A stretch of DNA of 64,000 nucleotides, taken from a virus. Where the stretch lies: the IMG/VR virus record IMGVR_UViG_3300030098_006570, positions 84,085 through 148,084 of that record; one strand, 5' to 3'. The notes beneath the pieces are model-generated. The model saw only the letters and a list, made by a program, of their open reading frames with translations. It had not been told where the DNA came from and ran no database searches. Positions 56-58,132 of the stretch are shown here, one piece after another. Positions within the stretch are counted from its first letter, which is position 1. Each line of letters begins with the position of its first letter. The position numbers and the translations under genes are program-made.

Positions 56-74
56 GCTAGTGGTCTCGTAATAA

Positions 75-470
75 TTAGTTAGTGTTCACAGGAATCAATA
101 CACTCGTTGAAATTTGTAAAGGCACAATTGTAAACTGAATTTGAATGGCAATTGTGTTAGGAAAGAGATCAGGGTTGTTTTCCGGCGTACTAAACGTGAT
201 GTTGTTAATCTGAACAAACTTCATATAAGTGGCGACTTGGCTATAAATTCGGTCGTTGATAGCGTCATAAGTTGAAAGATTGTTATTTTCAAAAAAGAAC
301 CTACGGAGCCCGACACCAAAGCTAGGATTCATCATCCTCTCTCCCGGATTAGTTAATATTAGCATTTTGAGATTCTGAGTTACCACTTGCTTATAATCTG
401 TATTGAGATTATAAGCTCCGAATGTTTCATCTACAACCAAAGGTAACTGTGGGGATAAGCCTGACGCCAT
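75..470 (-). CDS. 25: Baseplate wedge protein gp25 (GPW/gp25 family)
   Basis: A 131-aa protein of the usual size for T4 gp25, the small wedge subunit that helps link baseplate to sheath. The hallmark segment NPGERMMNPSFGVGLRRF is at about residues 41-58, preceded by a TDYKQVVTQNLKMLILT helix. The old name 'gene 25-like lysozyme' is misleading because the fold is structural. The start has a good ribosome site (AGGAG about 8 nt upstream). It sits between a gp6-like gene and a giant structural gene, all read leftward, consistent with a late tail operon. Confidence 0.9.
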   Translation of the reverse strand: MASGLSPQLPLVVDETFGAYNLNTDYKQVVTQNLKMLILTNPGERMMNPSFGVGLRRFFFENNNLSTYDAINDRIYSQVATYMKFVQINNITFSTPENNPDLFPNTIAIQIQFTIVPLQISTSVLIPVNTN

Positions 471-500
471 TTCTTTTTCTCCTAGTGCGCTACACTATAA

Positions 501-3500
501 TTAACACTCCGGCAAACTTTCTTCCCCAGAAACTTCAGTCTCTTCTCCATCGAGATCATCTTCGATCGCCTTTTTCGCCAATTCGAGCAAGATGTATAAC
601 ACTCCAAAAGGAAGAGGGGGTAACATTATCATGCCAGTAAGGGTGCCTGTGAAGTCAACGCCGTCAAGAGTAAATTTAGGCAAAATATTGTTGATAAGCT
701 CTTCGTTATTGGCGGCATTATTGAGCGGCGGAGGACTGGCGCTTATGGCTGCCTCCAGGCCTGATTGCATTCCAAATTCAACCAAACACAGCATAACTCC
801 AAGTAACTGTTCGCCAGTAATTTCAAGGCCGGTTTGCTCCTTCAACTCTGCTAAGGGTGGAGCTGCATCAATAACTTTGATAATTTCACTAAATGCGGTC
901 CCCGTTATATTGCGCACCACCTTCCATATGGCTACGTGGGGGTCTATCATTTCTGCAAGGCCCTTCAAAATCATGATGGGGGTCTCTATGAGCATCTTTA
1001 AGATGAAATCACGACCCATAGACTGCATGGTAGCTGCGAACTCCGGACCTTGTGTGTTTTGAATGGCTGCCCTAGCTGCGGCGCGATCGTTGCCTGGATC
1101 TTCCTGCTCTTCTCGATTGTACAATACATCTAGGAAAGCGTTAACTATAAAGGCTTTTGTGGCACCGTAGGTTTGATCAATCTGTTCAAAATAGCGCTCC
1201 GTCAAATAAAAGTTCTGGTACATGGGGACCATGGTAATAAATGATTGAATAAAAGTCTCACCAAAAATTTGTTTGTAAACGGGATTATTGGCAATACGCG
1301 TCACCTCAGCATTACGTGCGTTCTGTTGCTGGATCGTAAGAGGCCCTGTCGCTAACCAATCATCCAATTGATCGCGTAAAAGCTCGAAGGCCGAGTCAGG
1401 TAAAAAAGCATCCCACTGATCGTTTTCTACTTCAAAATCAGCTATCGTCACGCGAATAAGAGGGGTATCAACATACCCTACATTATTGTAAAGGAGAGGA
1501 GTATCAACAGGCCTACCATCTTCATACGTGAATAGGCTGGCCTGATCTTCTATCAAAGCATCCGCGCTTGCTTCGGTGAGTGCAAACAGATTATTCTGAC
1601 TCTGATCAAGGTCTTGCATGTGGCCTATTCGCGAAATCAGCAATGATGCATATGATTCCACTGCAATGTCAGCAGAGGTGCCCTGGCCTTGGAGTTCGTT
1701 GTTGGACTGACTAGTGAACTCCGTGTCGAGACTATTAGTGGTGGAGGGCAAGAAGTAAACAAGCCTAGTTTTTACCCGCAAGTTTACAAAGCTAAAATCG
1801 AAGTCAGGTAGGAGAATGTTGTGGGACCCCTCTATATAGGGAGGACTTGTGTCGCCCCCATAGAAAGTGTTGCGAAACTCGGATAGTTCCAATTCGCCTC
1901 CTAATTCTCTCGTTAGTTCTAGAGCCTCCGGAGCATCGCCGCCGGTGATTCCGTCCCAAACCACCACTCTCTCTAGCGCAAGAGTGCCGTAAGCTAAAGG
2001 AGATCCGTTGGTGCGGGAGAGTATATTATGACCTGGTTCCAAGTCCATCGATGGGTTTCGAAGGCTCGTGAACCCCAAAATATCCTGAATAAAGGCTTGA
2101 TTGTAGGTTTTTTTGAACTGACCTTGTGGTGTCGCCAGTCTTACTGAATTGGACATAGCCGTTCGGCCCCAGTGAATCCTCTGATTAACCAGATAACTGA
2201 GCAACTCTAGCCAGTTAGCATCTGTAAATATGGTCCCCACGGGAAAGACAACCGCCTCATTGTGATCCAGGATGCCGCCGCGGGAAGCAACCACAGCGCG
2301 GCCCATCTTGCGATTGTAATACTCTTGAATAGCTCGGCGCATATCCGGTTGTTGGTTGATACGTCGTTCAAGATCCCCCAGGATCTGAGCTGTCATAAAC
2401 TGTGCTATGACGGGATCCGACATCAACTCATTGACATTGAATGCAGCAAAGGCAAAGATGTTTTTAATAACAAATTCGGCTACCTCGATCTGAATAAGAT
2501 TCAAGAATAATGACAACAGCACCGCATATCGGATCTTGTCGTCCAAAGGTATATCATCATCAAAACAAGCAGATTCTAAGAATTCTTCTTTAACCTGTCT
2601 TAGGATTCCGTCAGCATCTAGAAGATCGGCTGCTGCTTGGGGGGGGCAATTACTGTTATCTTTGAAAAATTGCAAAGCGCGGACCCCAGCCGCATCAAAT
2701 ACGCCATTTGCAGCAATATAGTTAAACATAGCTTTGGTAAGGCCAGCATACAATGACGGATAAAGCCAGGTCTCTATTTCTTCGGTAATAATTAGGTTCT
2801 GTTCGAGAGTAGTTGTATCCTGTAATATAGGCTGGAGTCCGGTGGCGACAGGGCCTGTGAACCTGTATACATAAGGGTTAGTTTGTAGTCGCATCCCCAT
2901 TTCCTGGTCAACGCCCGTCGCAACTGGATAGAAGTGGGATCCCAACACGTCCAATACCGAGGAGCTAATTTGGAATTCAGCTTTTGGCGGCAATATAGTC
3001 CCAATGCCCGAGGCACTAATTTGTACCTCAGCAAAGCTAAGATTCTCTGCATCCTCTCCACCTCCCATGGCTACTGCGGTGTTGAATCTAGGGTATGAAA
3101 GGGTCAAACTATCTTTGCGGCCAATGGTAGAAAAATTATAGGTTAGGCTGAGATCCCGATAGGCCAAGGCGCCGGCGCCGATATTGGTGACGATGACTGC
3201 GTCGGGATCGGCGAGAGTAGGGTTCCAAGTGGCCAGGGAGCCTGTATTTAGGCTTTCGTCGGCGCTCGTAGCCACATAATGGTTTGCCTCAACTCGCTCA
3301 GTCGTATTATTAAAGGTGGGGGCGCTAGCAATATAATTGGTGAAATTTGAGAGATAATTACTTGGGAAAGAATAAGTGGCACGCAAGTTATTGGGGCCAG
3401 GGCCGTCGCTACTCGTAATCTGTGCCGCAATGTCCCCTAGCCGGTCGTTGATAGAGGTAATAGCATCAACAAAATCAGGATCCGCAAAGACATCACCCAG

Positions 3501-31392: not shown

Positions 31393-31475
31393 TGGTGGAG
31401 GTGCACGGAGTCGAACCGTGGTCCTGAGAATGCCATTGCAGGATTTAATCTCAGTCGAATTCCCAAACCACCCCC
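31393..31475 (-). ncRNA. 83-nt tmRNA-like RNA without a tag reading frame
   Basis: The 5' end (GGGGGTG, then TTGGGAATTCGAC) and 3' end (GGAC, T-arm CACGG-TTCGACT-CCGTG, then CACCTCC-A-CCA) match the tRNA-like domain of bacterial tmRNA (ssrA). The acceptor stem pairs over 7 bp with a G3-U70 wobble, the alanine identity element, and discriminator A73. Where tmRNA carries its mRNA-like region and pseudoknots, only a 6-bp stem (CTGAGA/TCTCAG) with a 19-nt loop remains. A normal anticodon stem and D-stem cannot be drawn, which argues against an ordinary tRNA. It lies alone in a 173-nt gap between genes on the same strand. Confidence 0.7.
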
Positions 31476-42070: not shown

Positions 42071-42727
42071 TTATAGCGTCAACAACCACTCAATTGAATA
42101 GTTCACCTCTTCTGCACTATATCCCCGATCAATATCTCGTAAAATCATGTTACCGTCAATGTAATAAAACGTTGGCCAGCCAGACAGTGCCCAAGTCCCC
42201 CCAGCGCTTTCGAGCATCGCTCTGCTACCCCCGATTACAAGAGAGCTAGTATTGCCGTATTCTTGCGCCCAGGCTTGGACATCTTTAGCGGTGGGCACAT
42301 TGCCTTCGGCTGTTTCAATCAGAACAGTGATATAAAGAAGCCCTGTGTCGCTATATTGATCTTGTACCTCTTGGGCGTGTTGCGCTGCTAGTCGACAGGG
42401 ACCGCACCACCCGGCTGAGAAATCCAGTACGATTGGGCGCCCAAAGAGGGCGTATAGACTAAAGGCATCGCCCTTGTGGTCGACGGCCGTAATATTACAA
42501 GGGTGTTCTCCCTCTACGCACGCGCACGATTTCCAATCAATGGGACTGGTGGGAAGCATATCCCACGGATCCGTTTCGTGAAAATTCTCCAAAGCAACAA
42601 AGTCTAGTGTTTCCTGGTGATCTTCCGGGCCCAAGTCTCTTGGAATCCTATCAAACTCCTCCTTTCCCGAAGGGGGCGTACACGCGAATAAAGACGCGCA
42701 TAATACTAACAAAACCGTACGTAACAT
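42071..42727 (-). CDS. TlpA-like thioredoxin-fold lipoprotein
   Basis: A 218-aa protein with a signal peptide and lipobox (ASLFAC, Cys16), then a thioredoxin domain at about residues 85-218: SAGWCGPCRLAAQH with the CxxC active site and the cis-Pro loop GWPTFYYID. A second CACVEGEHPC segment precedes the domain. It would be anchored in the periplasm and act as a thiol-disulfide oxidoreductase. Phage-encoded TlpA lipoproteins are uncommon; it may help fold Cys-containing envelope proteins such as the lipoprotein at 30815. Confidence 0.82.
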   Translation of the reverse strand: MLRTVLLVLCASLFACTPPSGKEEFDRIPRDLGPEDHQETLDFVALENFHETDPWDMLPTSPIDWKSCACVEGEHPCNITAVDHKGDAFSLYALFGRPIVLDFSAGWCGPCRLAAQHAQEVQDQYSDTGLLYITVLIETAEGNVPTAKDVQAWAQEYGNTSSLVIGGSRAMLESAGGTWALSGWPTFYYIDGNMILRDIDRGYSAEEVNYSIEWLLTL

Positions 42728-42749
42728 AGCGACATACCTCCTATTGTAA

Positions 42750-43067
42750 CTAGAGGAGATGCTTTTTGTTCGGTATGTTTTTATATTTATCCGCGTCGGG
42801 GTGAGGGTCGATGGAATAATCTATGGGGGGAGAAATTACAGCTAATCTTTCATTTATTTCTATAAACTCCTCTTGGTCCGCGGGGACTTCAAAATCCCCA
42901 TATATTGCATCCACAGGACAAAGAGGCGTACATGCGTCGCAGTTTATACACACTTCCGGGTCGATAACGAGCATATCCGGAGCTTCCCGAAAAGCATAGA
43001 CAGGGCACGCGTCGACGCAATCAGTATACTTACATTTAATACAAGCCTCAGTTACCACATATGTCAT
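42750..43067 (-). CDS. fdxA: 7Fe ferredoxin, FdxA type (3Fe-4S/4Fe-4S)
   Basis: A 105-aa ferredoxin. CIKCKYTDCVDACPV (C9, C12, C17, C21) and CINCDACTPLCPVDAI (C40, C43, C46, C50) match bacterial FdxA, including the MTYVVT start, and the length is near the usual 106-112. It would carry electrons in the cytoplasm. As an auxiliary metabolic gene it may feed reductases or Fe-S enzymes during infection. It lies between the TlpA-like lipoprotein gene (22-nt gap) and the thioesterase gene (no gap). Confidence 0.92.
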   Translation of the reverse strand: MTYVVTEACIKCKYTDCVDACPVYAFREAPDMLVIDPEVCINCDACTPLCPVDAIYGDFEVPADQEEFIEINERLAVISPPIDYSIDPHPDADKYKNIPNKKHLL

Positions 43068-43469
43068 TTAGGTAAAGTCCTTAGGATCCCTATATTTTTG
43101 TCTTACCTTTTCAGATATCGGGATCGCTTCTCCATCACCGTCGATACGCACGAAGGTCATGGTGGTGCTCGCGACAGCTCGCTGGGTGCCGTTGTACACA
43201 GAGTGCCTTCTCGCCTCCATAGCCAGCGTTAGAGACGTTTTACCGACCTTGGCCACCTCTCCATATATCTTGATGATCTGACCGGGTCTGCAGGGCTTCT
43301 CGAAGGTCAATCCAGAAATATGTTTAGTGACCATTCGCGGAGTATCAGCAACCTGAGCAGCGTATGCAGCTGCGGCTTCGTCTAACCATGCGAGCATGAC
43401 ACCGCCGAAGAGGTTTCCGTGATATCCCACATCTTGTGTTTTCACAAAGTGGGTAGATATTAATTCCAT
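43068..43469 (-). CDS. YciA-like acyl-CoA thioesterase (hotdog fold)
   Basis: A 133-aa single hotdog domain. GNLFGGVMLAWLDEAAAAYA matches the helix and active-site Asp region of YciA/acot-type thioesterases, with KHISGLTFEKPCRPGQIIKI the following strand. It would hydrolyse acyl-CoA in the cytoplasm, changing fatty-acid or CoA pools. The stop codon abuts the ferredoxin ATG, and the start abuts the stop of a 58-aa coiled-coil gene. Confidence 0.85.
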   Translation of the reverse strand: MELISTHFVKTQDVGYHGNLFGGVMLAWLDEAAAAYAAQVADTPRMVTKHISGLTFEKPCRPGQIIKIYGEVAKVGKTSLTLAMEARRHSVYNGTQRAVASTTMTFVRIDGDGEAIPISEKVRQKYRDPKDFT

Positions 43470-43646
43470 TTATTTAGCTTTTTCGGGGGTAGACGATGCG
43501 CTCAAATCTTTGTTCACCTTTTTTACTTGCGCGCATTGGGTATTTTGACATAACTCGTTAACTTTAGCCTGTAGTTTTTCAATTTTTAAGCTCAAACTTT
43601 CCACCACAGTGGAAATTTCCAGTATAATTTTTTCTCTAGAGTCCAT
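43470..43646 (-). CDS. Small coiled-coil protein (58 aa)
   Basis: A 58-aa gene between the amidase and thioesterase genes, starting MDSREKIILEISTVVESLS and ending with the disordered Ser/Lys-rich STPEKAK. Residues 5-35 form a clear heptad pattern (ILEISTVVESLSLKIEKL). Its ATG lies inside the 3' end of the amidase gene (11-nt overlap) and its TAA touches the thioesterase ATG. The unbroken packing supports it as a real gene. Function unknown. Confidence 0.65.
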   Translation of the reverse strand: MDSREKIILEISTVVESLSLKIEKLQAKVNELCQNTQCAQVKKVNKDLSASSTPEKAK

Positions 43647-44253
43647 CTGCTTCGATCTCCTGTATCATCGCGAAGTGAGCATCAGCCACTGCCTGCCTCG
43701 TGAGGGGATCCAGTAACGCTGTGGCATCATCAAAATTAGTCATAAACCCATTCTCAGATAAGACTGCCGGCATATGAGTTTTTCGAAGAACGTAAAAGTT
43801 GGCCCATGTATCGTTACTCCGAATTCCTCGGTCGTAAAACACAGTAAGGTCGGCGAGCCAGCGTTGAAGACTTGTGGCTAATCGCTTGCCGGATCGACTC
43901 TTATAATGATAGAATGTGCATACGCCTTTGGCCTTATTGAAGTCACGTCCGTTTCCAAAAGCATTGGCATGCACCGAAACGTATATAGAATTGCGATTTT
44001 GACGATGAAGCTCGTTAGCTGTACGTACGCGGTGAGATAGTGGAATGTCTTTATTGGTGTTTACGATATCGGCACAATCAATGTTATGCTGTTTGCATAA
44101 CTCTATAACACGGTCCACCACATCGCGATTGAATTCTCCCTCATAAAGGACAGATCCATCAGGAAAGCGAGGGGATCGTTTTCCTGCGGTCTGGTAAACA
44201 CCGTTGATTATTCCGCCGTGTCCTGGGTCTAGGAGCCATGTGTGGCGCGACAT
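43636..44253 (-). CDS. N-acetylmuramoyl-L-alanine amidase endolysin (Amidase_3)
   Basis: A 205-aa zinc amidase. The ATG at 44253 has GGAGGAAAGACC before it; an in-frame GTG 15 nt upstream overlaps that site. Zinc and catalytic residues are visible: H12 in LDPGHGG, E in LYEGEFN, H in VSVHANA and E in SENGFM. It cleaves the amide bond between MurNAc and L-Ala and is the probable lysis enzyme. No signal peptide or cell-wall-binding domain is seen, so a holin is expected; the protein at 41770 is a candidate. Confidence 0.9.
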   Translation of the reverse strand: MSRHTWLLDPGHGGIINGVYQTAGKRSPRFPDGSVLYEGEFNRDVVDRVIELCKQHNIDCADIVNTNKDIPLSHRVRTANELHRQNRNSIYVSVHANAFGNGRDFNKAKGVCTFYHYKSRSGKRLATSLQRWLADLTVFYDRGIRSNDTWANFYVLRKTHMPAVLSENGFMTNFDDATALLDPLTRQAVADAHFAMIQEIEADGL

Positions 44254-44269
44254 TGGTCTTTCCTCCACT

Positions 44270-44770
44270 CTATAAATATTCTTTCCATTTCAAATTTCCT
44301 TTACCGATACGTTTTTTAATTATAGACCGATAGGAAGGTTTCTTCGGCGGCCGCATAAGAGTCACCGGCGCATTTTCGATCAAAAAATCACGTTTTTTCT
44401 GATTGCAAGCGTTGCATGCGGCAACAACATTGTCCCATGTATTAGCGCCTCCTTTGGAACGAGGCAAAACATGGTCGATCGTCAGGTCGCCTTCTCGGAA
44501 ATGTTTGGTGCAATATTGGCACCTATTTTCGTCCCGTAAAAGGATATTCTTGCGCGTACATGGCAAAGTAAAGAATTTTTCGTCAATATAGCGGAATAAG
44601 ACGATAACAGAGGGTATTTGAAACGCTTGTGTAGCCGAATGAACCCATTTATCGGTATATTCAGCAGCCCAGGCCTTTTTGAGCCATGTCAAAATGATTG
44701 CCTCCTCCCAACTAATCACTTCGATGGGTTTGAACGACGAATCGAGTTTTAGAACGGAAATGGTCTCCAT
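44270..44770 (-). CDS. HNH endonuclease
   Basis: A 166-aa protein. The HNH core lies at about residues 84-130: CQYC then LTIDHVLPRSKGGANTWDNVV and CNACNQKK, giving a zinc-bound beta-beta-alpha metal site. The N-terminal 75 residues (VLKLDSSFKPIEVISWEEAI) match the common family of free-standing bacterial and phage HNH proteins. It may be a homing nuclease or a DNA-processing enzyme near terminase-like functions. It is the first gene left of the divergent promoter region; 16 nt separate it from the amidase start. Confidence 0.88.
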   Translation of the reverse strand: METISVLKLDSSFKPIEVISWEEAIILTWLKKAWAAEYTDKWVHSATQAFQIPSVIVLFRYIDEKFFTLPCTRKNILLRDENRCQYCTKHFREGDLTIDHVLPRSKGGANTWDNVVAACNACNQKKRDFLIENAPVTLMRPPKKPSYRSIIKKRIGKGNLKWKEYL

Positions 44771-44878
44771 TTATCTCTAAGGTGGCACGACAGAGGGGCG
44801 CCCTCATTATAAATAGAAATTATTTTGTCGATAAAAGACGAGCGCCAAGAAAATACGCTAAAAAAACCAAAAAAGAGC

Positions 44879-44907
44879 TTGCCATCTGAATTTGGGTCAA
44901 TTATAAT
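44879..44907 (+). promoter_or_regulatory. Sigma70 promoter for the yeaH-spoVR-prkA operon
   Basis: TTGCCA at 44879-44884 and a perfect TATAAT at 44902-44907, separated by exactly 17 nt, point toward the only plus-strand genes in the window. Transcription would begin near 44914. The 189-nt gap (44771-44959) is the divergent space between the minus-strand HNH gene and this operon. It also holds an ATTATAAATAGA stretch at about 44808-44819 that could act on either strand. Confidence 0.75.
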
Positions 44908-44919
44908 ATGAAAGATCCT

Positions 44920-44935
44920 AAAACTAAACAGTTTT
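44920..44935 (+). other. 5'-leader hairpin before the yeaH-like gene
   Basis: AAAACT-AAAC-AGTTTT is a perfect 6-bp stem with a 4-nt loop, only a few bases after the predicted transcription start. Such 5' hairpins can protect mRNA from decay. No Shine-Dalgarno sequence is seen before the ATG at 44960, so the leader may matter for translation control. Confidence 0.45.
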
Positions 44936-44959
44936 GTCGGGCATCAAAGTAATTAGTAT

Positions 44960-46198
44960 ATGAGCGTATTCCGCAAACACAAATCAATTGTCGACCGAGC
45001 CGCCAGTGACCGAATTCGTCATAAAAAGAAAATTGAAAAGGCAATCAAAGATTCTATCAAAGACGTTATTGCTGAAGAATCTATCATTGGCCAAAATGGC
45101 AAGAAAAAGATCCGAATTCCGGTCCGGGGCATCAAAGAATATCGCTTTATCTACGGAAATAACGAAAATAACAAAACTGTAGGCTCCGGAGGGCAGCATG
45201 GACTGAAAAGAGGTCAAAAAATCGGTCAAAAACGGGCTGACAAGGCCAAAGGCCAAGGAACGGGTAAGGCCAGTAACGAAAAAGGTGACCAATACTATGA
45301 TGTAGAAGTTACATTGGAAGAATTGGCTGAATATTTGTTCGCAGATCTAGAATTGCCGGATTTAGAGAAGAAACAATTCAAATTTATCTCTCACGAGACC
45401 ATCAAACGCCAAGGATACCGCTTTCAAGGCATCCGTCCGCGCCTCTCCAAGAAAGAAACGCTCAAAAGGAAGATTCGACGTCAGAAAATGGCGGAAAAAG
45501 CCGGAACCTATGACCCCGAGAGCGACGATCGCTTCCCCTTTCACAAGGATGACCTAAAATATCACCATATCAAACCCAAAGTTAAAGAAAACAGCTCTGC
45601 CGTCATCTTTTTCCTCATGGATGTATCGGGATCCATGTCTCAAGACCGAAAATACCTGGCGAGGAGCTTCTTCTTCCTCTTGTATCAGTTCTTGAACCAC
45701 CGATATGAGAATGTGGAGGTAGTTTTTATCTCTCACTCCACAAATGCGGAGCGTGTGACTGAAGAAGACTTCTTTAAAGTAGGTACATACGGTGGTACAA
45801 TTGTTTCATCTGCCTTGAACCGCCAAATCGAAATCGTAGAAAAAGAATTTCATCCAAATACATGGAATATTTACACTTTTTACTGCGGTGATGGAGAAAA
45901 TTGGTCTTCGGACAATGAAAAATGCATAGATTTGTTCAAGCAGATCAAAGATATAAGCCAACTAACAGCTTATTGCGAGATTAACGAGCACTATGGCAAC
46001 TTCGCCGAGGAGGGAAGCAACGAAGTTATGCCAGATGGGTACCCGTGGCCCTCATTTTCAGCTTGGAAGCAGGAAGAAAAGGACAATCTGTGGTCCAAAC
46101 TCACTCCCATCTGCGACAATAAGTTCAAAAAAGTGATGATTGGTCATACCGATCACATTTGGAAGGCCTTCAAATCTCTATTTGGTGGAGGAAAGTAA
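44960..46198 (+). CDS. yeaH: YeaH/YhbH family protein (DUF444, VWA-like)
   Basis: A 412-aa DUF444 protein, close to the 427 aa of E. coli YeaH. The N-terminus SVFRKHKSIVDRAASDR is basic and the middle is Gly/Lys-rich. The VWA-like domain carries the metal-ion site DVSGSM at residues 221-226, then THYGGT-like GTYGGTIVSSAL. YeaH acts with the kinase YeaG (PrkA) in stress and nitrogen-starvation responses in enteric bacteria, and its partner genes follow directly. Driven by the sigma70 promoter at 44879. The ribosome site is weak. Confidence 0.9.
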   Translation: MSVFRKHKSIVDRAASDRIRHKKKIEKAIKDSIKDVIAEESIIGQNGKKKIRIPVRGIKEYRFIYGNNENNKTVGSGGQHGLKRGQKIGQKRADKAKGQGTGKASNEKGDQYYDVEVTLEELAEYLFADLELPDLEKKQFKFISHETIKRQGYRFQGIRPRLSKKETLKRKIRRQKMAEKAGTYDPESDDRFPFHKDDLKYHHIKPKVKENSSAVIFFLMDVSGSMSQDRKYLARSFFFLLYQFLNHRYENVEVVFISHSTNAERVTEEDFFKVGTYGGTIVSSALNRQIEIVEKEFHPNTWNIYTFYCGDGENWSSDNEKCIDLFKQIKDISQLTAYCEINEHYGNFAEEGSNEVMPDGYPWPSFSAWKQEEKDNLWSKLTPICDNKFKKVMIGHTDHIWKAFKSLFGGGK

Positions 46199-46200
46199 CC

Positions 46201-47508
46201 ATGAGTGACTGGACTGAAGCAGATTTGCTTCATTGGGATGAAAAAATCATCAGGATAGCGGAGGATTTAGGACTCGATTGGCATCCTATTGATTATGAGA
46301 TCATCGATTACCAAGAAATGCTCGGCGCCATGGCTTACACCGGTCTACCAACGCATTATCGGCACTGGTCATACGGCAAAGAGTACGAGCGTACGCATAC
46401 GCTTTATAATATGGGCCAAACAGGGCTACCTTATGAGATGATTATCAACTCAAATCCGTCTATCGCATACTTGATGAGAGAAAATGCGCTCTACATTCAC
46501 CTCTTGACGATGGCTCACTGCGTTGGTCACTCGGATTTTTTCAAACAGAACCGTATGTTTGCCGAAACTAACCCGGAAAACATAATTGATAGCTTCAAGT
46601 CTTCTGCTAAATACGTACGACAATTGATCGAAGACCCGTCTATTGGTATTGATAAGGTGGAAAATATCCTAGACGCTGCACATTCTATCAAATATCAGGT
46701 ACCGCGTTTTCCTGGGATCAAATACAAAAGCCGCGATGAATTGATAGCGCTCGAAAAAAAGAAGATGATCGAGAATCCAAACTATTCTCCCAATCTCTCT
46801 AAAAATCCCCTGAGGCCAGAGTATAACCTTCTTCGCTTTATAGCAGAACACAGCAAAGGTCTGGAGGAATGGGAGAGGAACCTTATTCTTATTGTTGAGG
46901 AAAGTTCGAAATATTTCATCCCCCAGGCGCTCACGAAGGTGATGAATGAGGGGTGGGCCTGTACAATTCACTACAAGATTATTAATGAGCTAAACTTACC
47001 GGATAAGCTTCACCTGCCGTTTATCAAGCTTCACAATCAGGTAGTACGACCCCATCTCGGCCAACTTAACCCCTATCATTTAGGCTTCAAATTGTTTGAG
47101 AAAATTATCGAGAAGCAGGGTATGGAAGAGGCCATGATAGTACGAGAAGTTCACAACGATATTTCCTTCCTACGGTTCTATATGGACCAAGAGTTTATGG
47201 AGGAAATGAATTACTTTACATACTCCTTCAAAAAAACACAAAAAAATATTACAATAGATGATATCTCCGATGAAGATGGGTGGGAAAAAGTAAGAGACGA
47301 GTTAATTAGGAATATAGGACTTAACCGCGTACCAGTTATTTACGTGGACGAAGTAGAAAGAGACAACTCCTTGTGTTTGGTCCACGAACACGATGGCCGC
47401 GATCTCGACCTAGCGTATGCCCGCAAAGTATTCGAGCATATAAACACTTTATGGAAAGATAATGTCACTTTGACAACAATCGTGGAAAACGAAATATGGG
47501 AGTTTTAA
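46201..47508 (+). CDS. spoVR: SpoVR family protein (YcgB-like)
   Basis: A 435-aa SpoVR family protein from ATG 46201, 2 nt after the yeaH stop, with GGAGGAAAGTAACC before it. Family features include DWHPIDYEIIDYQEM, PTHYRHWSYGKEYE and ALTKVMNEGWACTIHYKI. B. subtilis SpoVR affects spore cortex; elsewhere the family co-occurs with PrkA and DUF444, as here. E. coli YcgB is about 510 aa, so this version is shorter, mostly at the ends. Its biochemical role is unknown in any organism I know of. Confidence 0.92.
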   Translation: MSDWTEADLLHWDEKIIRIAEDLGLDWHPIDYEIIDYQEMLGAMAYTGLPTHYRHWSYGKEYERTHTLYNMGQTGLPYEMIINSNPSIAYLMRENALYIHLLTMAHCVGHSDFFKQNRMFAETNPENIIDSFKSSAKYVRQLIEDPSIGIDKVENILDAAHSIKYQVPRFPGIKYKSRDELIALEKKKMIENPNYSPNLSKNPLRPEYNLLRFIAEHSKGLEEWERNLILIVEESSKYFIPQALTKVMNEGWACTIHYKIINELNLPDKLHLPFIKLHNQVVRPHLGQLNPYHLGFKLFEKIIEKQGMEEAMIVREVHNDISFLRFYMDQEFMEEMNYFTYSFKKTQKNITIDDISDEDGWEKVRDELIRNIGLNRVPVIYVDEVERDNSLCLVHEHDGRDLDLAYARKVFEHINTLWKDNVTLTTIVENEIWEF

Positions 47509-47511
47509 ATC

Positions 47512-49446
47512 ATGACCACAACAAATAAGTTTCTAGAAAGGATTCAGGAGCACCGAGATCTCAAGAAGGTAGAAAAATTTGAAGGATACCTTGGTGATTA
47601 CCTGGCGCTTCTGGAGGATAATAAAGAAATTGCAGCCCTAGCACACAGGCGCCTGTATGACCAGATCATGTCCGAAGGGCTAACTGTTCTTGATGAGACA
47701 GATCATCGGTGCAATAAGATCTTTGATGGAGAAGAGGTTAAAATCTATAACTATTTTTCTGACCATTTCTTTGGAATGGAGCGGCCCCTAGAGAAGGTCA
47801 TGCGCTTCTTGCGCTCGGCAGCTATGAAAGGCGAAGAGAGTCGTCAGGTACTTTTACTTCTTGGTCCGGTAGGCGCAGGAAAATCCGCTCTTGTCGAGCA
47901 CATCAAGAGCGCCCTAGAACAGTGCGCTCCGGTTTTTGCATTAGACGGTTGCCCCATCCGCGAGGAGCCGCTTCATCTTATCCCTCGCTCACTGCGCGCG
48001 GAGTTTGAAGAGGAGTACGGCATCAAGATTGAAGGAGACCTTTGTCCAGTATGCCGGCACAGACTTATCAATGAGTTTGAAGGAGACTTCACGAAGTTCC
48101 CAATTACGCAGTCTTCCTTCTCTGTGCGAGGCCGCAAGGGTGTTGGGGTTGTTCCTCCCATGGATCCGAACACCCAGGATACAAGCCTTCTCATTGGCTC
48201 TGAGGATATTTCAAAGCTAGACCTGTATCCGGAGGACGACCCAAGAGTTCTTTCGCTCAACGGAGCGTTCAACGTTGGTAACCGAGGCATTGTTGAGTTC
48301 GTTGAGGTTTTCAAGAACGAGATTGAGTTCCTTCATACCATGATTACCGCCACCCAGGAGAAGAATGTTCCTTCCCCCGGTAAGCAAGCGATGATTTATT
48401 TTGATGGTGTCATTCTCGCTCACTGCAATGAAGCCGAGTGGAACAAGTTCAAGGCTGAACATACTAACGAAGCCATCCTTGACCGTATCGTGCGTGTTAA
48501 TGTTCCTTACACGCTTGAGTTCGAGCAGGAGGTCAAGATTTACAAGAAGCTAATTGGGCGCTCCGACTTCGATTCTCATATCGCCCCTCATACCCTTGAG
48601 GTTGCTGCGATGTTCGCGGTCCTCTCCCGCCTGAAGCCTTCCAACAAAGTCGATGCATTGACCAAGATGAAGATCTACAACGGTCAGGAGATTGTCGAGA
48701 AGGGTCTTATCAAGAAAGTGGACATCAAGGATCTCCGCGAAGAGGTTGAAGATGAGGGTATGACTGGTATCTCCACTCGTTTCATCATGAAGGCCATTGA
48801 TGCCGCCCTAGCTGATTCGTCCAAGAATATGATCACCCCCATATCGATTCGAGATGCACTAGTCAAACAGGTCAAGGAACAGATTGTCAACGCTGATGAC
48901 AGAAAGCATTTCCTTCAGTTCCTGCAGAAGACGCTTCACGAAGAATATCTTTCCATTCTTGAGAAGGAAATCACCAAGGCTTTCGTTACTGCCTATGAAG
49001 AGCAGGCAGAGTCCTTGTTCAACAACTACCTCGATCACGCCGAGGCTTACGTCAATAACACAAAGGTCAAGGATCGAGTAACAAACGAAGAGTTCGAGGC
49101 CGACGAAAAGTTTATGGCTAGCATCGAAGAGCAGATCGGTATCAAGGGCTCTGCGAAGAATAACTTCCGGGCTGATATCACTTCCTACATGTTTGCTAAG
49201 TTGCGTCGCGGGGAGTCAATTGATTGGCGATCCTATGGTCCTCTTAGAGAGGCAATCGAAAACAAGCTTGTTTCGTCGGTACGCGATATTTCTCGTATTG
49301 TCACCAAGAGCAAGAGTCGAGATGTAAAGCAGCAGAAGAAATTCAATGCGATGGTTGAAACTCTAATCGAAAATTATGGTTACAATGAAGACTCCGCCGA
49401 AGAAGTCATCAAGTTTGCGAGTAATAATCTATGGCGTGATTCGTAA
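47512..49446 (+). CDS. prkA: PrkA-type serine protein kinase (YeaG)
   Basis: A 644-aa protein, the same length as E. coli YeaG. It has an N-terminal AAA+ domain with Walker A GPVGAGKS (118-125), a Cys-containing CPVCRHRL insert (about 177-184) typical of the family, and a C-terminal kinase-like region (ISTRFIMKAIDAAL; ISIRDALV). PrkA proteins are AAA+ kinases linked to stationary phase, starvation and sporulation control. It follows spoVR by 3 nt and ends the plus-strand operon at a terminator. Codon use looks like that of the neighbours, so the operon may be long resident. Confidence 0.93.
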   Translation: MTTTNKFLERIQEHRDLKKVEKFEGYLGDYLALLEDNKEIAALAHRRLYDQIMSEGLTVLDETDHRCNKIFDGEEVKIYNYFSDHFFGMERPLEKVMRFLRSAAMKGEESRQVLLLLGPVGAGKSALVEHIKSALEQCAPVFALDGCPIREEPLHLIPRSLRAEFEEEYGIKIEGDLCPVCRHRLINEFEGDFTKFPITQSSFSVRGRKGVGVVPPMDPNTQDTSLLIGSEDISKLDLYPEDDPRVLSLNGAFNVGNRGIVEFVEVFKNEIEFLHTMITATQEKNVPSPGKQAMIYFDGVILAHCNEAEWNKFKAEHTNEAILDRIVRVNVPYTLEFEQEVKIYKKLIGRSDFDSHIAPHTLEVAAMFAVLSRLKPSNKVDALTKMKIYNGQEIVEKGLIKKVDIKDLREEVEDEGMTGISTRFIMKAIDAALADSSKNMITPISIRDALVKQVKEQIVNADDRKHFLQFLQKTLHEEYLSILEKEITKAFVTAYEEQAESLFNNYLDHAEAYVNNTKVKDRVTNEEFEADEKFMASIEEQIGIKGSAKNNFRADITSYMFAKLRRGESIDWRSYGPLREAIENKLVSSVRDISRIVTKSKSRDVKQQKKFNAMVETLIENYGYNEDSAEEVIKFASNNLWRDS

Positions 49447-49469
49447 CACTCCCAATCGAATGTATCGCC

Positions 49470-49503
49470 AAGGGGGCCCTTAGGGGTCCCCTTTCATTTT
49501 TTT
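49470..49503. terminator. Rho-independent terminator after prkA
   Basis: Stem AAGGGG (49470-49475) pairs with CCCCTT (49488-49493) around an inner CCCTTAGGG, followed by a T-rich run interrupted by CA. It ends the plus-strand operon. The convergent minus-strand gene stops inside the hairpin (TAA at 49480-49482), so it may serve both directions, though the A-tract needed on the minus side is weak. Confidence 0.7.
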
Positions 49504-53007: not shown

Positions 53008-53220
53008 TTATACCTCGCTTATAATCTTGATGTCTGAGACGTACTCTTCGGACGTACATCCACCGTTCCAACTGAACCATTTTACCTGCACAACGTAAGC
53101 CCCGTTTGCATTCACCTGGATAATCCTGGTTACGGTTCCGGGGTCGCCCTCCAAAGTGATAGATTTCACAATGTCGCCAACTCGGCAGATTGGGTTTCCC
53201 CATGCGTCTTGCTTTCTCAT
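53008..53220 (-). CDS. SH3/KOW-like small protein
   Basis: A 70-aa protein from ATG 53220 with an excellent site (GGGAGGAATACG). It has CRVGDIVKSITLEGDPGTV, then QVNANGAYVVQVKWFSW and EEYVSDIKIISEV, the five-strand order of a small SH3-like barrel. It overlaps the upstream gene by 4 nt and precedes the 52206 gene by 1 nt. Function unknown. Confidence 0.6.
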   Translation of the reverse strand: MRKQDAWGNPICRVGDIVKSITLEGDPGTVTRIIQVNANGAYVVQVKWFSWNGGCTSEEYVSDIKIISEV

Positions 53221-53486
53221 CGTATTCCTCCCTTGTCTCGCCAAATCTCTTCGGCGAATCGCTTTGCGAAACGGAGACTGTAGCCGTTTCCATCAACTTC
53301 CTCTTCCTTCACTGCTGCGTTGGCGAAGTTGCGGAGGCACTTGATGAACTCGATTTTGCCAAAGGCTCGCTTGTTGGCTCGATGGAGGCTTTGGCCCATG
53401 TAGACGGCTGCAAGGTGTTCTACCATTTTGATGGTGTTTTCCATTCCGTTGCGGTCTTCGGTGTCAAAGACGATAACCATCTTCAT
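53217..53486 (-). CDS. Conserved-type small phage protein
   Basis: An 89-aa alpha/beta protein: MKMVIVFDTEDRNGMENTIK strand-helix start, then KIEFIKCLRNFANAA and SLRFAKRFAEEIW. I recall similar small proteins from other large phages, but no function is attached. Part of the four-gene unit from the promoter at 54027. Confidence 0.6.
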   Translation of the reverse strand: MKMVIVFDTEDRNGMENTIKMVEHLAAVYMGQSLHRANKRAFGKIEFIKCLRNFANAAVKEEEVDGNGYSLRFAKRFAEEIWRDKGGIR

Positions 53487-53491
53487 TTATC

Positions 53492-53971
53492 TTATCCTCG
53501 GAGCGCGGACAAATCGGCTTCGGTTAGGCCGAGAGAATCAAGCAGTTTCTGGCGTTCGGTCTTCTTGACCTTCGGAGCCTTTGCCTTTACCTTCTTCGGC
53601 TTCGGGACGGGCATCCCAATGTTTGCGGCCCGTGCGTTTCGCTCCTTCTTCTCTTTCTCCCATTGGGCGAAAAGGACAGCGTTTCCGGGGTGCATTGGAG
53701 CTTTGTTCCGCGCACGGAATCGAGCAAGACGAGCCCTGCGAGCAGCGCCTGGAATGCCATTAGCAAAGGCAGCATCTTTTGCGTTAGCACGAGCGACGTT
53801 GTTTGCTCCACCGTGACGCTCGCAATACCAAACTTTATCGGCGCGAACATTTGGATCAAATTCGCGACAACCACCATGATGATTGCAAGAAACCCCATGA
53901 GTGTGGTTAGCCGCTTCGCGGGAATTGCTGGCGATGATGAAGGCATTTCGGACATTGTTGCGCTTACCCAT
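53492..53971 (-). CDS. Basic Cys/His protein of unknown function
   Basis: A 159-aa protein from ATG 53971 (GAGGAG site). The N-terminal region has C and H residues in a pattern able to bind zinc (SCNHHGGCREF, then WYCERHGG). The middle is Arg/Ala-rich (GAARRARLARFRARNKA), the C-terminal part Lys-rich with KVKAKAPKVKKTERQK, ending in a short helix. It is likely nucleic-acid binding. First gene after the sigma70 promoter at 54027-54055. Confidence 0.55.
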   Translation of the reverse strand: MGKRNNVRNAFIIASNSREAANHTHGVSCNHHGGCREFDPNVRADKVWYCERHGGANNVARANAKDAAFANGIPGAARRARLARFRARNKAPMHPGNAVLFAQWEKEKKERNARAANIGMPVPKPKKVKAKAPKVKKTERQKLLDSLGLTEADLSALRG

Positions 53972-55689: not shown

Positions 55690-56976
55690 TTACCTTTCGG
55701 TAGGAACGATAATCATTCGTTCGGGCTTCGGGTTGAAGTAGGGACGCTGGCCGTTGTACTCATCGGTAATCCAGAGACGTTGAACATTGCAGCGAACCGG
55801 CTTCGGTGCCTCCATATCGGTACAAATGATAAGGCCGTCGAATCCGCCCTTCTCATTCACGAACTTCGTGGGAGCGTTGAAGCAAGTTCCGCCGTGCATG
55901 ACACGTTCACGCTTGCGCTGCATTCCCTTCTTCCAAACATAATTCAAACTCTCCTCGACACGAGTATCGAAAGGAATCACCGTGAACTCTGCGATCTTAG
56001 CAAGCGAGTTCAACTCTGCAAAGAAGGATGCCAGCATAGCATCCGAAACCGAGCCCGACTGGTCGATTGCAATCGCAATCTTAGCAGTTCGGGAAGACTT
56101 CTTGCCAGGATGCTGGTAAGGATAACGCTTGTTGATCTTGCGAACCGTGCTGCGCTTGTTTGCCTTCTGGCTCTGCTTCACAAAGTAGCGAAGCACCTTG
56201 CGCCAGTCAACCTTGCTGGAGATACCGTCAATAATCTCCTTCCTGAGATTGCTCGGCACACTTCCCCATCCACGGGAAGAAGAGTTTGCCTCTTCAACGG
56301 CGTCCTTCACGAACTCCTTGACTCGCTCCTCCGCAATCTGCTTTGTCTGCTCATCAACAGCATCCCAACCGGAGTGATCATCGAAAGAGTCCATATCGTC
56401 CAGGGACTGCTGGCCTTGCCCTTGTCCCTCTCCACCTTCACCTTCTTGAGGCTCACCCTGACCTTGTTGATTCTCCGGTTGTTCCTTCTGCATCTTGCGA
56501 AGTTCCTTCAAGTAGTGCTCGGCAGTCTTGAAAGGCTCAAGGTGCTCAAATGGCCCCTTTCCAGGCATACAAGCCATTTCGGGAAGGTGCGGAAGATGCC
56601 CGTTGATTGACAGGTCCATCGCGATGTTGTGAATCTTGCGCTCGTTCGGTGCCATGTCGCGGAAGGACAAGAATCGGTTGCCAGTCACATGCTGAAACAC
56701 AATGTGATAGAACTCGTGCTTTAGGATGTCCTTCTTTGCTTCATCACTCAGGGGAGCGAAGAACTTAGGATTGTAGACCATCTGCAACTTGCCCTCTTCC
56801 GTCACCATCACACCGGCAGTTGGAATCGCGTTGCTTGCACGCTTATCCATCCGACGCGAAAGTGCCGCAAAGAAAGGCTCGTCCATAAGCAGACGATGAA
56901 TGTGAATGTTCAGGTCGAAAGCGGATACATCCACTTCCTCAGTTTCGACTGCTTCGCTTTTGGCTGGCTCGGTCAT
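55690..56976 (-). CDS. VWA/metallopeptidase-like protein (DUF2201 type)
   Basis: A 428-aa protein from ATG 56976; GGAGGAACGCTCA precedes it, and an in-frame ATG 15 nt earlier overlaps that site. The N-terminal domain has HEFYH at 87-91 (HExxH, DUF2201 N-terminal metallopeptidase-like). A Gln/Gly/Glu-rich linker covers about 165-190. The C-terminal VWA-like domain begins at about 300 with the metal site D305-Q-S307-G-S309. Such proteins act with MoxR-type AAA+ ATPases, and one is encoded next upstream (57071). Each has its own promoter. Cellular pairs act in metal-cofactor insertion or complex remodelling. Confidence 0.82.
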   Translation of the reverse strand: MTEPAKSEAVETEEVDVSAFDLNIHIHRLLMDEPFFAALSRRMDKRASNAIPTAGVMVTEEGKLQMVYNPKFFAPLSDEAKKDILKHEFYHIVFQHVTGNRFLSFRDMAPNERKIHNIAMDLSINGHLPHLPEMACMPGKGPFEHLEPFKTAEHYLKELRKMQKEQPENQQGQGEPQEGEGGEGQGQGQQSLDDMDSFDDHSGWDAVDEQTKQIAEERVKEFVKDAVEEANSSSRGWGSVPSNLRKEIIDGISSKVDWRKVLRYFVKQSQKANKRSTVRKINKRYPYQHPGKKSSRTAKIAIAIDQSGSVSDAMLASFFAELNSLAKIAEFTVIPFDTRVEESLNYVWKKGMQRKRERVMHGGTCFNAPTKFVNEKGGFDGLIICTDMEAPKPVRCNVQRLWITDEYNGQRPYFNPKPERMIIVPTER

Positions 56977-57001
56977 TGAGCGTTCCTCCATTGTTACCTA
57001 T

Positions 57002-57070: not shown

Positions 57071-58132
57071 CTACACCTTGTCGCCAGTCAGAATCTCCAC
57101 AAGGTAGTTACCAACCTTGCGACCATCAGCCGCAGCCGTGGAGTGGAACTGAATCGCGTTGTCCTGATTCGCCTGACCGATAACGGTCCACAGCTTCATG
57201 GCGGGCTCGCTCGGCAGAGACATGAAGTATGCCGCGAGGTTCACGAGTTCACCCTCGTTCAGGGAGTTAGCGAATCGGTCACTCGCACCCATCTTGTCAA
57301 TGAGAGCGCAGTGCTGGTTCAGGTCAACGTCCGGGGTCATTCCCTTGTCGAGAATGTCGGAAATGGTGACAACCTTGCTGTAGTTCGCTACGAAGTCGTT
57401 GAAAGCAACCGCAGCCTCGAATCCGAGGTAAGCAGAAGCCAGCGCAAACACAGCCGGGTTGGACTGGCCCGCTTCGACCAGTCCCGCAGCGGTCACAGTG
57501 TCCGAGAATCGAGCCCACGAACGACGCGACGGGTAAACCTTGTTCGGCTCGGGGTCGTCGTTGTGCTCAAGGTGCTCGGTGTTGTTCCGAATGAAGTCCG
57601 TCACCAGAGCATCGCAGTTGTCCGCAGCCCACGCAATCCAGTCATCAATGGAAGGCTCCACATCGAACACCGTGTAGCGGTCGAGTTCAGCCGGGTCCAT
57701 TTCACCGACCTGATAGGAAGCAGCGCCCGCGTGGGTTCCACCATTCACCGCAGCGAAAATCAGGGTGTCAGGGTGAAGTGCATGACCGGCGAGCTTGCGA
57801 GAATCGCAAAGCTCAAAGATACCCTGGCGAACTTCCAGGGTCGCACGGTCAACCTCATCGAGGAAGAGGACGACGCCATTATCACAGGCAGTCGCGAACC
57901 AGTCTGGAGGACAAAAGGAAGTCACCCCTTCATCCACAGTCGGCAGACCCAAAAGGTCGCCTTCCGTCATCTGCGAAGCGCGGCGCTCCACCACCGGAAG
58001 ACCGAGGGATTCCGCGTACTGGTAAACCACGGAAGACTTACCGATGCCGTGCCGACCACGGAGCAGGACAGGGTGATTCGCACTTGTAACGTGCGGAAGG
58101 ACGAGGAGAAGATTCTTGAAGTCGATTGCCAT
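57071..58132 (-). CDS. MoxR-type AAA+ ATPase
   Basis: A 353-aa AAA+ protein. Walker A GRHGIGKSS (26-34), pore-loop/ligand region with MTEGDLLGLPTVD, Walker B VVLFLDEVDRA, sensor 1 IFAAVNGG, and a C-terminal helical lid. The MoxR/RavA-like layout and the adjacent VWA gene make a two-component chaperone-like module likely. The first 20 residues are MAIDFKNLLLVLPHVTSANH. Read from its own promoter at 58179. Confidence 0.88.
   Translation of the reverse strand: MAIDFKNLLLVLPHVTSANHPVLLRGRHGIGKSSVVYQYAESLGLPVVERRASQMTEGDLLGLPTVDEGVTSFCPPDWFATACDNGVVLFLDEVDRATLEVRQGIFELCDSRKLAGHALHPDTLIFAAVNGGTHAGAASYQVGEMDPAELDRYTVFDVEPSIDDWIAWAADNCDALVTDFIRNNTEHLEHNDDPEPNKVYPSRRSWARFSDTVTAAGLVEAGQSNPAVFALASAYLGFEAAVAFNDFVANYSKVVTISDILDKGMTPDVDLNQHCALIDKMGASDRFANSLNEGELVNLAAYFMSLPSEPAMKLWTVIGQANQDNAIQFHSTAAADGRKVGNYLVEILTGDKV

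Follow-up and report, generated by a model that had tools for sequence, protein, structure and literature searches.

Introduction

The AAA+ protein PrkA (YeaG), the VWA protein YeaH (DUF444) and SpoVR (YcgB) form a module that is widespread in bacteria and a long-standing orphan as regards its substrates and the part played by SpoVR. In Escherichia coli, YeaG and YeaH work together and are described as a 'metabolic brake', deletion mutants surviving nitrogen starvation worse and recovering faster, and the YeaG substitution K426A is described as catalytically deleterious (PMC10954441); yeaG acts there through toxin-antitoxin repression and rpoS (PMC4664914). PrkA of Bacillus anthracis exhibits negligible kinase and protease activity (PMC13001217). 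Here we describe a complete YeaH-SpoVR-PrkA trio encoded by a virus, IMG/VR record IMGVR_UViG_3300030098_006570. The window analysed comprises 64,000 nucleotides, i.e. positions 84085-148084 of the 148,084-bp contig, and coordinates refer to the window unless the contig is named. A first-pass annotation, made from the sequence alone, stated that no phage function of such a trio had been described. As far as function is concerned this is right, since the literature that we searched (mostly open-access papers, no preprints) reports no phage in which the function of the trio was tested by experiment; the genes themselves, however, had been annotated in Thermus phages phiYS40 (YS40_056/057/059), phiLo, MN1 and Lalka8, in huge phages, and in jumbo phage RsoM2USA (SpoVR, ORF28; PrkA, ORF30; PMC8504454), the latter being absent from the matches in the phage collection searched here. 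SpoVR has also been reported in ocean viromes (PMC8940887).

Results

The window encodes YeaH/DUF444, SpoVR and PrkA/YeaG, all intact, at 44960-49446 on the plus strand, with intergenic gaps of 2 and 3 nucleotides. The three genes and the elements that accompany them are:

44879-44907, plus strand: sigma70-type promoter TTGCCA-17-TATAAT with 11 of 12 consensus matches; the class is kept in the seven nearest relatives
44920-44935, plus strand: leader element AAAACTAAACAGTTTT with a weak 5-bp A/U stem and a 6-nucleotide loop, shared by six of the seven sequences aligned, the window among them
44960-46198, plus strand: YeaH/YhbH, DUF444 VWA protein of 412 residues with a complete metal ion-dependent adhesion site (MIDAS; DxSxS, T, D); PF04285 at 1.3e-106
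46201-47508, plus strand: SpoVR/YcgB, 435 residues; PF04293 at 7.5e-115 plus SpoVR_C; conserved H106, H110, N249-E250, H257 and H278
47512-49446, plus strand: PrkA/YeaG AAA+ protein, 644 residues; PF08298 at 3.3e-145 and PF06798 at 5e-81
49470-49503, plus strand: strong intrinsic terminator with a 10-bp stem (7 GC) at 49470-49493 and then a T run; in most near relatives the terminator differs in sequence

The proposal that these are three full-length genes is borne out by complete Pfam domains. PrkA matches AAA_PrkA (PF08298) with 484 bits and the C-terminal domain PF06798 with 273 bits, compared with cut-offs of 25; YeaH matches PF04285 with 357.6 bits, its MIDAS residues DxSxS, T280 and D311 being invariant; and SpoVR matches PF04293 (384 bits) and SpoVR_C (35 bits), both above the cut-offs. 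For SpoVR the ATG at 46201 is the fitting start, the listed TTG at 46159 falling inside yeaH. All three proteins score below the NCBIfam equivalog cut-offs (PrkA, 411 versus 576 bits for NF011999; YeaH, 383.5 versus 468 bits for YhbH, TIGR02877; SpoVR, 271 versus 679 bits for NF008737), and by that rule PrkA is a family member and not an equivalog. By sequence search, PrkA has a solved relative (structure 9xip, E 1e-100), and none was found for YeaH or SpoVR; the SpoVR model, though confident (predicted local distance difference test score 94.8), matched no solved fold (best E 0.52), and its fold search returned a single good viral match, A0A3Q8HYQ4, whose 617 residues equal the length of phiLo SpoVR. 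The conserved His and Glu residues of SpoVR may form a metal site. In PHROGs the best-matching families of all three proteins are of unknown function.

In trees of PrkA and SpoVR, the window proteins belong to a single, fully supported phage clade whose sister group is the bacterial loci L141-L143, and the YeaH tree is compatible with this clade at weaker support. The clade is deep and exclusively viral; L140, from a bacterial metagenome-assembled genome (MAG) that includes a portal gene, falls within it. The window contig carries phage genes (RNR, DnaB-type helicase, tail sheath, head-tail adaptor, major head protein, portal, TerL, an SbcC/D-like protein, primase, PhoH, endolysin and glycosyltransferases), and the operon lies internally on several related viral contigs that carry TerL as well. 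Host contamination or an assembly chimera is hence rejected by the hallmark genes, the TerL-bearing relatives and the phylogeny alike, and the combination that the first-pass annotation had named as pointing to an artefact or a recent host capture, placement within one host clade together with a nearby contig break, was not found: this is a real phage operon. Other phages with the trio, that is, the Thermus phages, huge phages LR745206 and LR756504 (which group with proteobacterial versions) and LR756511 (in a third group), occupy separate places in the tree. A single phage origin of the trio is rejected (constrained log-likelihood lower by 1094, approximately unbiased test p = 6.5e-54), and strongly supported branches of the unrooted tree force at least five label changes, with the direction of transfer not proven. 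The trio thus appears to have been gained independently by several groups of large phages. Separately, yeaG and yeaH occupy the extreme end of the Enterobacter phage LAU1 record (MN688132.1, positions 61-3158), where they may be host DNA.

Searching IMG/VR, PrkA matched at least 149 stretches, and the best 80 of these, which were kept, are 64-89% identical to the window protein; SpoVR matched 52, 28 of them closely. More than 100 related viral DNA pieces carry the cassette, which has therefore long been retained by these viruses. The order YeaH-SpoVR-PrkA is found in all complete clade loci, the sole exception, L077, lacking YeaH and being cut by a contig end, whereas bacterial loci mostly read PrkA-YeaH-SpoVR, an order that the phage clade does not share. 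What had been taken for the usual association of the three genes is thus a real trio in an order that is not the usual bacterial one. The phage-like order also occurs in three Bacillota MAG loci (L147, L149, L153), yet PrkA is only 39% identical there. When relatives were chosen by TerL and not by the trio, PrkA was present on seven of the ten non-query contigs of at least 80 kb (G001, G003, G004, G006, G068, G070, G072), and the other three (G059, G065, G071), judging from TerL distances on fragments, appear to end before the expected place; this suggests that the clade carries the trio as a lineage-wide gene set.

The residues expected to matter have been kept throughout, where motifs were assigned by what we take to be general rules for AAA+ and VWA proteins. 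In about 110 clade loci the Walker A/B, sensor and Arg-finger-type residues of PrkA are 100% conserved, as are K427 (the lysine of STRF..K, which aligns with K426 of E. coli YeaG), the MIDAS of YeaH, and H106, H110, N249, E250 and H257 of SpoVR. The ratio of nonsynonymous to synonymous substitution rates (dN/dS) is 0.02-0.05 for all three genes wherever dS is measurable; the trio has been passed down as a unit within a deep phage clade, with purifying selection acting strongly on it. That all three families are cellular, and that some plasmids carry prkA, might suggest passive host-gene cargo or a chimera devoid of any phage function; the phage-only clade, the low dN/dS, the conserved promoter class, the lineage-wide presence, and TerL and portal genes on the same contigs contradict this, and make it very unlikely indeed.

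The three genes constitute one apparent transcription unit. In the nearest relatives the upstream region has diverged, yet a promoter with 17-nucleotide spacing is kept in seven of seven (TTGAAG/TATACT, TTGCAA/TATAAT, and the perfect TTGACA/TATAAT in L004/L005), the leader AAAACTAAA..GTTTT is kept in six of the seven aligned sequences, window counted, and most near relatives have a terminator at the equivalent place with a differing stem sequence. Being kept in this way, promoter, leader and terminator are unlikely to be chance matches, and the persistence of the promoter amid divergence, of the leader, and of terminators with changed stems argues for selection on the transcription unit. The operon's own sigma70 promoter and its terminator were therefore correctly recognized in the first-pass annotation, while the 5' hairpin, though present as an element, amounts to a weak A/U stem. 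An own promoter as a trait of the whole clade is rejected: in the wider clade no promoter signal above chance was found upstream of YeaH.

Much the same holds for the strand. Where PrkA identity is at least 84%, 15 of 15 loci (on 8 contigs) have the trio opposed to its neighbours, as do a few others, while 89 of 95 loci at 60-80% PrkA identity are colinear with their neighbours, some contigs being counted twice. Strand isolation as a whole-clade trait is thus rejected; it belongs mainly to the window subclade. Among 80 non-identical clade loci, the trio has GroEL-like and/or PhoH neighbours in 41, lies inside a head-tail operon in 16, and is placed otherwise in 23, seven of these being of the window type. 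Since the cassette of relatives resides within a head-tail operon or beside GroEL/PhoH, isolation on the opposite strand is not essential. Hence, comparison of synteny shows the cassette intact in relatives, whereas the lone placement that had drawn attention to the locus is largely confined to one subclade: what is conserved is the cassette itself. A trio that stays intact and in fixed order at changing genomic places indicates that its parts need each other more than they need their neighbours.

The head-tail and GroEL neighbourhoods give rise to the main rival explanation, a phage proteostasis or assembly machine in which the trio, in the manner of other AAA+/VWA pairs, would remodel phage proteins (head-neck-tail proteins or very large adhesins) beside phage chaperones. 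In the 16 head-tail loci the trio is located between head/neck genes (major head protein and head-tail adaptor upstream) and very large open reading frames (ORFs), and several of these loci have a sheath homologue further downstream; Thermus phage Lalka8 has it between portal/minor head protein and TerL, and phiYS40 near TerL. A GroEL-like ORF of about 440-470 residues follows soon after PrkA in 39 loci (e.g. L124:8184-9587), and the disputed kinase activity of Bacillus PrkA, together with an intact AAA+ part, would likewise suit such a machine. However, the trio of the window subclade stands apart from structural genes and has a sigma70 promoter, the orthologous head-tail operon of the window contig (contig 26801-30764) is devoid of the trio, so that assembly needs no trio in cis, and the cellular homologues act in starvation and sporulation. 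On balance we regard this explanation as unlikely, if still the strongest of the rivals. No GroEL match was found on the window contig; the GroEL-like ORF of relatives matches GroEL models over only about 230 residues, as a diverged phage chaperonin. About 30 loci besides L020 (11793-12038, minus strand) encode, near the trio and PhoH, an 82-residue protein with a sigma-70 region 4 domain.

The statement that all other genes in the window lie on the other strand holds, and extends to the whole 148-kb contig, where every recognizable gene other than the trio is on the minus strand. Other plus-strand ORFs on the contig are short or overlapping; none of those tested matched a family, and the majority share their place with minus-strand ORFs. 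One at contig 53115-53915, likewise without a family match, fills a gap of its own and is a possible exception. Consensus sigma70 promoters (11 or 12 of 12 matches) are strongly enriched on the gene strand, the contig having 19 on its minus and 3 on its plus strand, compared with 2 and 1 in a reversed-sequence control, and those near gene starts precede the helicase, primase, SbcC/D-like and right-end genes but hardly the head-tail block. A second motif, CTATTTAT, occurs 13 times on the minus and never on the plus strand, 25-46 nucleotides before several genes, and is a candidate late promoter; no T4-type late promoter TATAAATA was found upstream of genes. The trio promoter belongs to the sigma70 class and not to the CTATTTAT type, and its sharing of a class with replication and end-region genes makes early expression by host polymerase, as the first-pass annotation had expected it, plausible for the window phage. 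The features flanking the operon, all outside the module, are:

43636-44268, minus strand: N-acetylmuramoyl-L-alanine amidase (endolysin-type)
44270-44770, minus strand: HNH endonuclease, divergent from the operon
44809-44816, minus strand: CTATTTAT motif that may act as a late-type promoter for the HNH gene

A lone early-type unit about 0.7 kb from an endolysin-type amidase gene, in a module repeatedly recruited by large phages, would also be compatible with a developmental timer, which sets lysis commitment or a pseudolysogenic pause and does not act on starvation signalling as such; the amidase neighbourhood is, however, known from the window subclade only, and we consider a timer improbable. 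Of similarly small likelihood is a role in counter-defence, in which the trio would block toxin-antitoxin or abortive responses of the host. The early class of its promoter, and the action of E. coli yeaG through repression of mqsRA and dinJ-yafQ (PMC4664914), agree with such a role. Yet that toxin-antitoxin link works at the level of transcription and may be indirect, the trio occurs in bacterial genomes without defence context, and PADLOC defence-system models returned only weak matches (DolB, 1e-4; Cas11a, 4e-3), none of them convincing.

At the DNA level no similarity of the contig to known phages was found. Further observations concern other genes of the window. A thioredoxin-like protein, a ferredoxin (Fer4 + DUF3470) and a 4HBT thioesterase lie in a row beside the amidase (42071-43469, minus strand) and are additional host-like genes. 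About 6 kb from the trio, a second AAA+/VWA pair (55690-56991 and 57071-58132, both minus strand) consists of a DUF2201 protein (metallopeptidase + VWA-like) and an AAA_5 (dynein-related) ATPase, with PHROGs matches phrog_1314 and phrog_1297. An Rfam tmRNA match of 54.6 bits (gathering cut-off 47) at 31393-31475 on the minus strand, with two tRNAs nearby, spans only 83 bases though aligned to model positions 1-374, as a shortened tmRNA-like gene would.

Discussion

The 'metabolic brake' of E. coli, taken together with the negligible kinase activity of B. anthracis PrkA, leads us to favour a phage-owned AAA+/VWA/SpoVR complex that acts on host physiology and sets a quiescent host state, a reading to which we give a chance close to, though just short of, even. 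Of the first-pass interpretation, the phage operon is supported, while dormancy or an override of host starvation signalling stays a conjecture. PrkA would be an ATP-driven AAA+ ring, YeaH its VWA/MIDAS partner and SpoVR the third component, the three working jointly, as a complex, on host proteins. If expressed early from host-type promoters, such a complex would put the host into a starvation-like state, quiescent but viable, which may win a large phage, whose cycle is presumably long, both time and resources in hosts short of nutrients. Several points weigh against it. To our knowledge SpoVR has no known activity. Knowledge of the brake comes from E. coli, and identity to the YeaG of that species is as low as 32%; moreover, the placement inside head-tail operons in 16 of 80 loci would imply late expression there, which fits poorly with an early takeover. 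The kinase activity of PrkA is itself disputed (PMC13001217).

It is tempting to speculate further that a widespread large-phage lineage, probably marine (guessed from general knowledge and a single relative found in a TMED MAG), possesses its own lineage-wide metabolic brake that pauses starved infected cells alive, and that the same device was recruited independently elsewhere; taken as a whole, this broader picture is doubtful. If true, a virus-set pause of starved cells would bear on the persistence of phages in nutrient-poor water. Several uptakes by large phages, and a cassette kept intact under purifying selection while its location shifts, in any case argue that the module supplies a viral need. 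Cultured Thermus phages with the trio make its phage role testable, and a phage that depends on the trio would open a clean route to the substrates of a long-standing orphan system.

Among described systems, E. coli yeaG-yeaH and ycgB represent the same three families and conserve the Walker and Arg-type residues as well as the K426 position, with SpoVR 32% identical over 473 columns and PrkA likewise 32%; but the phage SpoVR is shorter (435 versus 510 residues), and ycgB is located apart from yeaG-yeaH in E. coli, whereas the phage genes form one YeaH-SpoVR-PrkA cassette whose proteins fall below the equivalog cut-offs. The closest cellular relatives constitute a rare bacterial version (L141, Sneathiellales; L142, Acidiferrobacteraceae; L143, Deltaproteobacteria RIFCSP), with identities to the window proteins of 55-58% (PrkA), 40-42% (YeaH) and 41-46% (SpoVR); they differ in their order, PrkA-YeaH-SpoVR, and in their chromosomal surroundings, which include lon, DNA ligase and shikimate dehydrogenase. 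The Thermus phages phiYS40, TMA, phiLo, MN1 and Lalka8 have a phage trio in the same relative order, annotated as conserved bacterial protein/vWA, SpoVR and serine kinase, but are only about 24-35% identical and of separate origin, and phiYS40 lacks the lysine at the K426 position. Huge phages LR745206, LR756502, LR756504 (635-642 kb) and LR756511 (595 kb) likewise encode PrkA, DUF444 and SpoVR; those placed in the tree have PrkA first and group with proteobacterial or mixed-phylum versions.

Finally, AAA+ ATPases are paired with MIDAS-bearing VWA partners in RavA-ViaA, NorQ-NorD and CbbQ-CbbO. The likeness is one of analogy, PrkA of the window matching AAA_PrkA and not the MoxR-type AAA_5; PrkA-YeaH may nonetheless work like a MoxR-type AAA+/VWA pair. 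Compared with all of these, what is new here is the size and depth of the phage clade, the behaviour of the trio as a cassette with a distinct gene order, and the evidence that phages recruited it more than once.

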